From assembly GCA_029936155.1 (NCBI GenBank), contig JAPYUK010000001.1, positions 1 to 64,000 of the forward strand: a stretch of 64,000 bases of DNA, given 5' to 3'. Each line of letters starts with the position of its first letter. The first letter of the stretch is position 1. This DNA is from Dehalococcoidia bacterium (GTDB taxonomy: Bacteria; Chloroflexota; Dehalococcoidia; Lucifugimonadales; Lucifugimonadaceae). This document shows, piece by piece, positions 9,601-41,034 of this stretch. The position numbers and the translations under genes are program-made. The notes beneath the pieces were generated by a model. The model did no database searches. It saw nothing but the letters and a program-made list of their open reading frames with translations, and had not been told where the DNA came from.

Positions 9601-10983
9601 GTGACCGAGTCCGCATACCGATCTCTACCATCGGTAGATGCGTTGCTTCAATCAGACGAAGTGGTGGCGTTGGCTCGCGACTTCTCGCATGAAGCAGTGA
9701 CAATGTTGGCGCGTGACGTGCTGGCAGGCGCTAGAGCGATGATCAAAAATGACGGTGATGCACCGTCCACAGAGTTGATGATCGCCGAGATCGCCGACCG
9801 GGCAGATCGAGCATGGGGAGCATGGCCGAAGCCAGTCGTCAATGCCACGGGTGTAGTGCTTCACACGAATTTGGGAAGGTCTCCGTTGAGCGCTGGAGTG
9901 GCAGAGGTTGCAGCGGCCTCTGCATCGATATATTCCGATCTCGAGTTCGATCTGGATTCCGGGAAGCGCGGATCCCGCAACGCTCACATTTCCGAGCTGC
10001 TGTCGCAGGTTTCTGGTGCCGAGGCTGGAATAGCGGTCAACAACAATGCATCTGGAGTGTTGTTGACCTTGGCCGCGGTTGTGGGCGCTGACAGTTCGAA
10101 AACCGAGGTGATCGTTTCACGAGGTGAAGCGGTCGAGATCGGTGGTGGCTTCAGAGTTCCGGACGTGATGCGCCAGTCGAGTGCGACACTTATCGAGGTC
10201 GGCACGACAAACCGTACGTACGCAGCGGATTACGAGGCCGCAATCACACCTCACACGGCTGCAATTTTAAAGGTCCACCCGAGCAATTTTGTGATCGAAG
10301 GTTTTACGCACGGCGCCGAATTGGCTGAATTGGCCGAGGTTGGTCAAAAACATGGAATTCCGATAATCAATGATCTGGGATCAGGGTGCTTGGTAGATAC
10401 CCGCAAATACGGTCTGAAGCAGGAGCCGCAAGTTCAAGATTCGATTTCGGATGGTGCAGCGCTAACGCTTTTCTCGGGCGACAAGCTTTTGGGCGGACCA
10501 CAGGCTGGCTTGATTGCCGGTGACCAGAACTGGGTCGACCTAGTTTCGAGGCATCCGCTGGCTCGTGCGGTTCGCATCGACAAGATGACTTTGTCGGCGA
10601 TTGCCGCCACTCTTACTTCGTATCTCAAAGGCGCACACGATGAAGAAATTCCGATCTGGAACATGATCTCAATGCGCGAGTCGGCGCTCGCGGCGAGAGC
10701 AGAAAAGTGGCGAGATGCCATAGGAGCTGGAACTGTTGAACGGGCAAGATCGGCAATTGGGGGCGGTTCGCTTCCAGGCCAAACTTTGCCCACATCGGTG
10801 TTGATTATCGAGCCCGGTGAGAGTGCCTACCGATTTGCGGCGAGTCTTCGTAGTAGTCCGGTTGCGGTAATCGCTCGAATAGAAAAAGATCGAATATTGT
10901 TGGATCCTCGAACCGTGTTCCCTGTACAGGATGACGCAGTCGTCGAGGCGCTGAAACTGGCGATTGGAAGCTCGGGAGAATGA
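9601..10983 (+). CDS. selA: L-seryl-tRNA(Sec) selenium transferase
   Basis: WPKPVVNATGVVLHTNLGRSPLS, INDLGSGCLVDTRKYGL, LFSGDKLLGGPQAGLIAG; GTG at 9601 fits SelA N-terminus better than the ORF-track start 9472. Confidence 0.92.
   Translation: MTESAYRSLPSVDALLQSDEVVALARDFSHEAVTMLARDVLAGARAMIKNDGDAPSTELMIAEIADRADRAWGAWPKPVVNATGVVLHTNLGRSPLSAGVAEVAAASASIYSDLEFDLDSGKRGSRNAHISELLSQVSGAEAGIAVNNNASGVLLTLAAVVGADSSKTEVIVSRGEAVEIGGGFRVPDVMRQSSATLIEVGTTNRTYAADYEAAITPHTAAILKVHPSNFVIEGFTHGAELAELAEVGQKHGIPIINDLGSGCLVDTRKYGLKQEPQVQDSISDGAALTLFSGDKLLGGPQAGLIAGDQNWVDLVSRHPLARAVRIDKMTLSAIAATLTSYLKGAHDEEIPIWNMISMRESALAARAEKWRDAIGAGTVERARSAIGGGSLPGQTLPTSVLIIEPGESAYRFAASLRSSPVAVIARIEKDRILLDPRTVFPVQDDAVVEALKLAIGSSGE

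Positions 10984-35454: not shown

Positions 35455-35458
<4 letters not shown>
35255..35458 (+). CDS. Small hypothetical single-TM protein
   Basis: 67 aa ORF, hydrophobic N-half; weak. Confidence 0.35.
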
Positions 35459-37515
<2,057 letters not shown>

Positions 37516-37567
37516 GTTTGGTTGGGATTCTAGCTGTAACTCAGGAGGTTGTGAGAGTTCGATGCGA

Positions 37568-38033
37568 TCACAAACCGGCGGGATGCTCCAGAAACCTCGG
37601 GAGGTAAATCGGTGATTCGAAGCCAGTTTCAAGGTCGTTGAAAAATCGGTCTATAAGAAACGGCGGAAGAATTCTCTTGTCTTCCAGATCACCCCTGCCG
37701 AGCCAGACAAATTCATCGATCCACTCACTATCCCATCCGCCTTCGCCCTGCACGGCTGGAGTGCCCTCCATATCGGAGACGACGAAAAGAAAACCTGCTA
37801 CGTTCGTCTTGGCATCTGTGGCCTGCTGAACGTAGGCGAGTCGAATGTTACTTGCTTTCGCACCAGTTTCCTCGAAGAACTCTCTCTCTCGGCACAATGG
37901 TTGATTGATTCCGCGCCGTCAAGCCCGCCAGCCGGTGGCCACAGTGCTGGCCGATCACCGGGTCGTTGCTCTTGTACATAAGCACACGATTGTCGCGAAC
38001 CATCAGTACTCCGCAGCGGATTCGGTGGATCAT
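37568..38033 (-). pseudogene. NUDIX hydrolase split over three frames (two frameshifts)
   Basis: MIHRIRCGVLMVRDNRVLMYKSNDPVIGQ / ALWPPAGGLDGAESINHCAER / EFFEETGAKASNIRLAYVQQ...; second shift inside a CTCTCTCTCTC tract at 37880..37890. Confidence 0.75.
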
Positions 38034-38160
38034 CGAGGCACTTCGTTCTGGAAATCGATGTATATCGGATTTGAAAATTCCAACACTCATGCTCCCAGAA
38101 AACTGGAGTGCAGATGACGTCAGGGTAGACCCGGTCGGGAAAACCACTCATCGGTCATCT

Positions 38161-38507
38161 TTAAGGAATCCACTCAACGCCAATTATTTGTTGATCTTCT
38201 GGTCCGAATTCGTGATCGCTTCCCGTGACAGCGCTGAGGTTGTTCACTTTGGCTCTAAAAAAAGTGCGAGGTGATGGATATCGGTTACCGTTTGGGTGAA
38301 CTCCTTGGGGTACACGAGCCGATCCACCGTTGGCACCAACCCGGTCTCCTCACGCATTTCTCGAATTACACACTCTTCAAACGTTCCGGAGTCTTCAACT
38401 CCACCGCCCGGCGGTATCCAGAACTCATCACTATCGCCCTTGTGTTTTATAAGCAATACCGAGTCACTTTCGATTGCCAGTCCTACGGCTCGCATTCTTG
38501 TTCTCAT
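38161..38507 (-). pseudogene. NUDIX hydrolase frameshifted at an A7/T7 homopolymer
   Basis: MRTRMRAVGLAIESDSVLLIKHKGDSDEFWIPPGGGVEDSGTFEECVIREMREETGLV...; adding one T at 38257..38263 continues to ...FRAKVNNLSAVTGSDHEFGPEDQQIIGVEWIP. Confidence 0.7.
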
Positions 38508-40012
38508 AGGCCGGAAAGTTCGAGTGATGCGACTTCGTCGGTCTCGAGATCGACAACTCTGATCTTGTGGTTGTTGGTGTCGGCAACGTAGATTCGATTG
38601 TCGATCAACGCAAGCCCAGCGGGTTCGCTGAACGTTGCTTCTGCGAGAGTGCCATCCTGATAGCCATTCTCGCCCGATCCGGCGATCGTTCGAGCTTGCA
38701 ATGACCCGATGGCGATCGACTTGATCTTGTTGTTATAGGAGTCTGCAACGTAGATTGCGTCGTTGTGTACGGCTAGTCCTTGAGGATGCTGGAGCAGTGC
38801 TTCTTTGCCAACGCCATCATGATCTCCGAAGTCGAACAGCCCTGTGCCCACAAGCGTTACGACCCTGCCCTCCTCCGCGATGGCAGCGACACGTACTGAG
38901 CTGGTTTCACTATCGATGAAGAACACAGTGTTGTTCGACACTTCGATTCCATACGGCTGAGCGAGGCGTGCTTCGGGTTTCATGCCATCGACGATATCTT
39001 CCCCGCCATCACCAGCGAACGTTGCAACGGTTCTCTCATCGAGGTTCATGGTCCAGAGTTGATGGAATCCGGCCATAGCGATGTAGAGCGTATCTTCGTA
39101 CAAAGACAGGTCGTAAGGCGAGTTGAGCGGTACTCCCAGCGCATTACCACCTGTGTGGCGATAGAGCGATTGTTCGCCCGTGCCAGCGAGTGTTCCGGCA
39201 ACGCCTTCATCTAGGTCGACCTCGACAATGGTGTGGATCCCAGCGTCGGCTACATATATCGTATCGCCAACAATGGCGGTTCCCTGAGGATTATCGAACA
39301 GTGGATCGTTGAAACCGACTGATCCGTAGACGCCTCGACGATCGCCGTTTACGAGCGGCGATTCACCGTTTCCAATAACGGTTTCGACTTTACCATCAAG
39401 ATCGGTGACTATAAGCCGACGATGATTCGAATCCGAAATTATCAGGCGCTCACGCTCGGCGTCTGCTGTGATTTTTCCGGGGAACGACAGTTGCTCCCCA
39501 GCAGCAATTTCCGACTGCAACGCGAACTCGCCACGCTGAAATAATCCCGATGGCTCGTGTTCAGCAATCATCTGTGAAATAACTTCGTCGAGTGTGTCGA
39601 CGGGAAATTCGCCCTCATGGCGTCCGATGACTTTTCCTGAGGGATCAAGGAACATCAGTGTTGGCCAGGCACGTGCTGCGTACGACTTCCAGATTTCGAA
39701 ATCTGCGTCGTTTACCACCGGACTTTCGATGCCGTACCTACGCACGGCCTCTCGCACGTTATCTGATGATTTCTCAGCGTTGAACTTTGCGGAGTGCACG
39801 CCGATTACGGTCAGGATATCGGCGTATTTCTGTTCCAGCTTCCGCAACTGCGGAAGTACGTGCATGCAGTTAATTCAGCAGTAGGTCCAAAAGTGGAGAA
39901 TCACGAGACGGCCCCGGAGGTCGTCCAGTTTTATTGGCGATTTTGTGTTGAACCACTCGAGGTTCGCAGGGAACTGCGGAGCGTGGATCTTGCCTTCGTA
40001 TCGCGTTGCCAA
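38504..40012 (-). CDS. Probable selenoprotein: thioredoxin-like domain + NHL repeats, UGA(Sec) at 39875..39877
   Basis: Frame continues upstream of the ORF-track Met (39865): (TTG)[44 protein letters not shown][UGA][14 protein letters not shown]; in-frame TAA at 40016..40018 bounds the N-terminus; SECIS-like hairpin downstream of UGA. Confidence 0.85.
39839..39856 (-). promoter_or_regulatory. Candidate bacterial SECIS hairpin
   Basis: CTTCCGC-AGTT-GCGGAAG, perfect 7-bp stem, G within first two loop bases, loop begins 26 nt after the UGA. Confidence 0.75.
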
Positions 40013-40098: not shown

Positions 40099-41034
40099 CT
40101 ATTCAGCGTCGATGAATACAGGCTGTGTCCATCCGCGGGTGCCTCTAGAAGAGTAGACCGTGGCTCGGACGTATCCGTCGAGGCGGGTTGGCGTGTATGA
40201 GGGCGAGATGCTGGTTGATTCGTAAAGCAGTCGACCGTTCAAGCCTGTAAACAGTGTCGTGTACTTAGCTTGGATGCCGTCGCTCAGGTTAGTCTCGGGG
40301 TCGATGTCCAGTTTGATCTCGCGAGCATTCGACACCATGTCGCCAATGGCCACACCGGTCGATGCGTAGAACTCGCCGTCCGACATCGCTTCGCAGATAT
40401 CCTGCTGCGCCAGCCTGGCAGCCTTCACCTGAATCCAACCTCTTCCCGGATTCGACAGGTTGGGGTTGAACTCGTCCACGTAGTGGTGGGCGTCGTCGAC
40501 AGCTAATCCCCACACCCGGCGCCCATTACTCAGCAGCCGATCCCAGATGCCGTCAGTACTCGCCTTGCCACCGCCACCAGCGTTGTGAGTGTCTGGGTGG
40601 CCGTTGAAGACCTCCATGAATTTGTAGCCTTCGACCTGCATCATTGCGCCATCGTCAAAAGCCCAGCGGAAGTTCGGGTGATTGATAGAGGCCATGCCGC
40701 CCGCAGCGATAATGGCGTCAACATTCTCTCGCATTGCAGTAACGATGTCGGTCGAGTCGGATGCTTCAACCAACTCCTCAACTCCGTACCCGTTAACGTG
40801 AACAGGGCCCTCGGAATTGCGAGATGTTACTTCCTCGCCGCGAACGAGCAGTGGCCACTTGGCCTTCTCGGCGTCGGTACCTTCCACAATCGTGAGGTGA
40901 TTGTGGTCAGATAGACACAGCCAGTCGTAGCCATGCTCGTGATACCACTCGGCAACGTGCTCGGGTGAGTCATCACCATCGCTATTGGTCGTGTGGGTGT
41001 GAAGATTGCCCTTTAGCCAAGTTTTAGTGGTCAT
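40099..41034 (-). CDS. PHP-domain phosphoesterase
   Basis: LKGNLHTHTTNSDGDDSPEHVAEWYHEHGYDWLCLSDHNHLT. Confidence 0.9.
   Translation of the reverse strand: MTTKTWLKGNLHTHTTNSDGDDSPEHVAEWYHEHGYDWLCLSDHNHLTIVEGTDAEKAKWPLLVRGEEVTSRNSEGPVHVNGYGVEELVEASDSTDIVTAMRENVDAIIAAGGMASINHPNFRWAFDDGAMMQVEGYKFMEVFNGHPDTHNAGGGGKASTDGIWDRLLSNGRRVWGLAVDDAHHYVDEFNPNLSNPGRGWIQVKAARLAQQDICEAMSDGEFYASTGVAIGDMVSNAREIKLDIDPETNLSDGIQAKYTTLFTGLNGRLLYESTSISPSYTPTRLDGYVRATVYSSRGTRGWTQPVFIDAE

Follow-up and report, generated by a model that had tools for sequence, protein, structure and literature searches.

A predicted selenocysteine form of the NHLRC2/SOQ1-type thioredoxin-like/NHL-repeat protein in Dehalococcoidia and other Chloroflexota

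Background

Human NHLRC2, which is linked to FINCA disease, and bacterial homologues with a CC(I/V)NC motif share one architecture, a thioredoxin-like domain followed by a six-bladed NHL propeller, with the CCINC motif in the cleft between the two. CCINC also occurs in the lumenal domains of Arabidopsis SOQ1, which form part of a larger HAD-transmembrane protein. Selenocysteine (Sec) is used almost exclusively at catalytic redox positions, and Sec/Cys pairs have been newly discovered in proteins with the thioredoxin fold before. Related thioredoxin-like domains without the NHL propeller are present in the C-terminal domain of Mycobacterium tuberculosis DipZ and in the ResA/StoA/TlpA thiol-disulfide oxidoreductases. 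Among listed selenoproteins, several families with a thioredoxin fold, a UxxC motif and a nearby downstream SECIS element have been reported (thiol-disulfide isomerase-like, redoxin family, Prx-like, thioredoxin; PMC13188914, PMC9312934, PMC1088965), none of them named as an NHL fusion.

Here we describe a gene of a Dehalococcoidia bacterium that shares fold, UxxC and downstream SECIS-type hairpin with these selenoproteins. It lies in a stretch of 64,000 nucleotides (assembly GCA_029936155.1, contig JAPYUK010000001.1, positions 1 to 64,000; hereafter the window). We estimate at about 95% the probability that this is a selenoprotein gene, i.e., that SelB and a SECIS element direct Sec insertion at its in-frame UGA to give a 502-residue product of the NHLRC2/SOQ1 type.

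Methods

Orthologs were surveyed at the order level by a protein search of 250 genomes in which stops were read through, and 134 orthologous frames spanned the site (rows counted by hand); 95 loci were inspected base by base. The published bSECIS constraints (PMC13188914) served as the standard for spacing, loop G and stem. The structure was modelled using 15 sequences, with Cys substituted for Sec. To find other conserved in-frame TGAs, the rest of the window was compared with three genomes of the same genus. The features discussed are collected in Table 1.

Table 1. Positions of the predicted selenoprotein gene, its signals and other genes in the window
Feature	Position	Strand	Remarks
Predicted Sec-containing thioredoxin-like/NHL-repeat protein gene	38504..40012	minus	502 residues with U46; TTG start, TGA stop
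Putative Sec codon UGA	39875..39877	minus	first position of UxxC (UINC); frame reading and ortholog alignment
Bacterial SECIS-type hairpin	39839..39856	minus	stem CUUCCGC/GCGGAAG, 7 bp; loop AGUU, 39849-39846
selA, L-seryl-tRNA(Sec) selenium transferase	9601..10983	plus	HMM match 9616-10956; GTG start and TGA stop by eye
DUF255/YyaL-type protein with thioredoxin-like domain	35455..37632	minus	conserved downstream neighbour
CehA/McbA-family metallohydrolase (PHP-like)	40099..41034	minus	conserved upstream neighbour

Results and discussion

Reading frame and protein architecture

By direct reading, the 502-codon frame has a single interruption, the TGA at residue 46. On its 5' side the minus strand reads TAA (40018-40016), GGA and TTG (40012-40010), and the frame ends at a TGA (38506-38504). 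The TTG is a plausible start codon: among the 83 Sec-form orthologs, its alignment column holds TTG in 14, ATG in 13 and GTG in 7, and 26 have ATG one codon earlier. Residue 46 falls on the first Cys site of CxxC, in the local context TYC-U-INC (i.e., CUINC), and a plain ORF call, which begins at ATG 39865, loses the first part of the thioredoxin-like domain together with the redox motif. This reading bears out a preliminary description of the locus, which had seen the frame continue upstream of Met 39865 to the TTG bounded by a TAA, had placed its sole interruption on the first Cys of CINC (a position also confirmed by the Cys homologues described below), and had noted that the ORF-track start removes the redox part of the domain.

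The thioredoxin-like and NHL assignment made there likewise agrees with the Pfam matches of the read-through product, namely Thioredoxin_8 over residues 34-128, the TGA included (E 3e-14), and NHL (E 3e-21). The best solved relatives by sequence were SOQ1 (E 6e-108) and NHLRC2 (E 1e-98). The structure model (pLDDT 91.3) has a thioredoxin-like domain followed by a six-bladed NHL propeller, as in NHLRC2 and SOQ1, and over its full length reached a TM of 0.92 to both SOQ1 (7djk; lumenal domains also in 7djj; 40% identity) and NHLRC2 (6gc1; 38% identity). The CC(I/V)NC motif is retained as CUINC apart from the Sec substitution, residue 46 aligning with the second Cys of CCINC in NHLRC2. In contrast to its relatives, the window's protein lacks the C-terminal beta-stranded domain of NHLRC2 within its 502 residues, and it stands alone rather than as part of a HAD-transmembrane protein.

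The N-terminal thioredoxin-like domain would carry a selenol nucleophile, U46, and a resolving Cys49, facing the NHL beta-propeller. By analogy with the established thioredoxin mechanism, Sec would attack the substrate and C49 would resolve the intermediate, and the product may act as a thiol/selenol-disulfide oxidoreductase, with the propeller serving to position its substrate. Acidobacteria with GCINC instead of CCINC retain the Cys at the U position and drop the preceding one, which fits a nucleophile at the U position. Since Sec is nearly confined to catalytic redox sites, its location also suggests which Cys of CCINC acts in NHLRC2 and SOQ1. For the chemistry only, the main rival is a Sec-containing enzyme that mainly performs a peroxidase or other reaction instead of disulfide exchange. 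For plants, the study that placed CCINC of NHLRC2 in the inter-domain cleft (PMC6107167) reports that DTT did not reverse the change of plastid lipocalin that depends on the orthologue SOQ1, and takes this as a sign against thiol-disulfide exchange; however, the thioredoxin fold is kept together with UxxC/CxxC and the conserved WP (cis-Pro region), and we regard such other chemistry as unlikely, though deserving of serious consideration.

Conservation of the TGA and its Cys counterparts

Of the 134 spanning order-level orthologs, 122 have a TGA at this codon, in 121 of them as the sole stop; the 12 Cys forms comprised ten from one family (f17) and one each from the genomes G245 and G153. A sample of 400 genomes of the phylum gave 70 long matches (E ≤ 1e-100) outside the order, of which 50 had the TGA and 20 did not. 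Base-by-base inspection gave TGA in 83 loci and TGC or TGT in 12. Among named genomes, Sec forms occur in Dehalococcoidia, the SAR202 cluster, Ardenticatenia and other Chloroflexota, in Thermomicrobiaceae, and in one MAG contig each with the labels Rokuibacteriota and NC10, and Cys forms in Planctomycetota, Acidobacteriota, Armatimonadota, Cyanobacteriota and others. Nearest to the window's genome were Dehalococcoidia/Chloroflexi MAGs (L137, L138, L144), at 70–73% protein identity.

In the NC10 (Methylomirabilota) MAG L186 the UGA is kept and the sequence 3' of it is different. One ortholog (G178:C349:8665-10125, L118) has a TAG besides the TGA, which may reflect a broken gene copy or a misassembly.

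When sequences of the same genus were compared, the 40 codons 5' of the TGA gave values of 0.157, 0.138 and 0.502 for change at positions 1, 2 and 3, respectively, a third-position bias which indicates that this region evolves like coding sequence.

The SECIS hairpin

The hairpin begins 18 nt 3' of the UGA and agrees with the bSECIS constraints, with a UGA-to-loop spacing of 25 nt, G at the second loop position, a stem of 7 bp and an energy of −11.5 kcal/mol. Energies of −7.5 kcal/mol or lower were obtained in 80 of the 83 Sec-form orthologs, and of 110 sequences 108 had the AGUU loop; stem mismatches are seen in a few Sec members. Among 47 distinct sequences, two-sided changes were found in four of the seven pairs (27 cells), which none of 500 shuffles reached, and the covariation score of the hairpin was 0.263 vs. 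at most 0.112 in slid controls. In two members (L198 and L205) the stem was rebuilt with the AGUU loop kept. Synonymous constraint in the gene peaks at the hairpin, whose codons rank 1, 3, 5 and 7 of 481, and the Leu56 codon is TTG in all 83 Sec-form orthologs. The 12 Cys homologues mostly lack the hairpin (mean −3.7 kcal/mol vs. −10.5 in Sec forms). Taken alone, the 46-nt window sequence had a folding energy unremarkable against shuffles (z −1.09). The helix preferred by RNAalifold (AACUGC/GCAGUU) was rejected because it had no compensatory changes. In a scan of the window's own genome with the SECIS model, which is specific to this family, the site in this gene was the sole confident match.

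The covarying hairpin 3' of the TGA and the coding-like codons 5' of it speak against taking the UGA for a true stop, which would make the locus either a pseudogene or a gene for a truncated NHL protein starting at ATG 39865. That start is the one given by the plain ORF call, and the full-length product is a prediction; nevertheless, the same TGA in an otherwise intact frame recurs in more than 100 genomes, and truncation would leave CxxC without its first half. We hold a true stop to be very improbable.

Sec machinery and the reading of the UGA

In addition to selA in the window, the genome has selB on another contig, its product comprising EF-Tu, beta-barrel and winged-helix SelB domains. 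With a tRNA-Sec from the same genus as query, a DNA search recovered the 3' 28 nt of tRNA-Sec at the edge of contig C46 (bases 76860-76887 of 76887); as this piece ends at the contig edge, selC is cut by the assembly and not shown to be absent. No selD match was found in the window's MAG (89% complete), while selD was over the cut-off in 35 of 40 genomes in the search of relatives. Since neither a complete selC nor a selD was seen in the window's genome, the pathway is partly reconstructed from relatives: Sec-tRNA would be made by SelA, with selD assumed from those genomes, and SelB bound to the hairpin would insert Sec at the UGA.

The relatives' selD is a selenoprotein gene too, as every listed over-cut-off match (L055-L062) has one in-frame TGA of its own. 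In the related assemblies G000, G004 and G012 (L121, L122, L133), tRNA-Sec is found at the ends of contigs or close to them, so selC may be wrongly scored absent in such genomes. A tRNA-Sec-like match of ~52 bits in the window's genome was identified as tRNA-Ser and not selC, as tRNA-Ser was the sole RNA found by Rfam and ARAGORN in the window.

The preliminary description had proposed an unrecognised Sec codon, to be checked by a bSECIS search, by Cys at the UGA position in homologues and by selB, selD and selC in the genome. The covarying hairpin, the TGC or TGT codons read in non-Sec relatives and the presence of selA and selB all support that proposal; of the machinery it named, selB was recovered, selC by its 3' fragment only, and selD was not found in the MAG. 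The same evidence weighs against the idea that a different amino acid is inserted at the UGA through near-cognate read-through or a code change. UGA read-through is possible in principle, but other homologues have Cys at this site, SelA and SelB are encoded and the hairpin fits a SECIS; moreover, 30 of the 83 Sec-form orthologs terminate at TGA, so UGA acts as a stop elsewhere, and we give this reading even less credence than a true stop. A sequencing or assembly error concealing TGC or TGT, codons for which the preliminary description had proposed a check, could draw on the fragmented assembly and the frame-disrupted look of the ORFs at 37568-38507, but its probability is negligible, as the same TGA and the same hairpin occur in independent assemblies, the TGA in more than 100, which excludes a base-call error for the family.

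Sec/Cys switching

The tree requires ~6 Sec/Cys changes, a number from a quick search with weak deep branches. The Cys form of G153 groups with Sec forms from the same family (support 100), that of G245 beside a Sec form (support 92). No selA match was found in either genome, both being MAGs in which absence is no proof, and the two appear to be reversions to Cys with loss of the pathway. Across the genomes tested, selA was present in 26 of 26 with the Sec form vs. 27 of 32 with the Cys form; as selA is kept in so many of the latter, including most of family f17, the codon follows the machinery loosely and the association is weak by itself.

Relation to known selenoproteins

Neither the 2022 nor the 2026 list of prokaryotic selenoproteins (PMC9312934, PMC13188914) mentions NHL, and it does not occur in the main texts of the Sargasso Sea, GOS, deep-Sep and 5,200-genome surveys either. 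Literature searches on NHL repeats with selenocysteine or selenoprotein, and on SAR202 or Chloroflexota with selenium, found no such family. In NCBIfam, selenoprotein models included, every listed match of the window's protein was under the cut-off (DipZ/ResA/StoA/TlpA models far under it), and for 15 members the sole selenoprotein model to appear was a weak WAxxUGC_long match. Since members could sit under broad listed names such as thiol-disulfide isomerase-like or redoxin family, we regard the gene as a known redox architecture in Sec form.

With this proviso, we think it probable that these genes represent a previously undescribed, phylum-wide family, i.e., a Sec form of NHLRC2/SOQ1 that is common in Chloroflexota and underwent several Sec/Cys conversions, and in which the second Cys of CCINC is catalytic family-wide, the human and plant proteins included. 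If true, a widespread UxxC selenoprotein family would be added in Chloroflexota, together with a bacterial model for testing the CCINC chemistry of human NHLRC2 and plant SOQ1. Wherever annotation proceeds without a model for the family, its genes are open to truncation.

Genomic neighbourhood

The TGA scan gave many matches, either in frames that do not code or at the normal ends of genes; no second site in the window combined > 80% identity, the gene's own frame, a TGA in all three relatives and an intact frame beyond. PADLOC gave no match. At same-genus loci a CehA-type metallohydrolase precedes the Sec gene. In the same family of genomes the DUF255/YyaL protein follows downstream, with a gap of ~20 nt or less in L038 and of ~85–150 bp in G004, G013 and G008. 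In the window, the interval 37568-38507 between the two genes holds a Nudix-domain ORF (38244-38507), its frame apparently lost after a T run, and beside it overlapping short ORFs that resemble a second disrupted gene. As these intervene in the window while DUF255 is close downstream in relatives, an operon of the two genes is likely in the relatives and less clear in the window. Homology of the window's DUF255/YyaL ORF to its relatives begins ~36 residues past the listed start.
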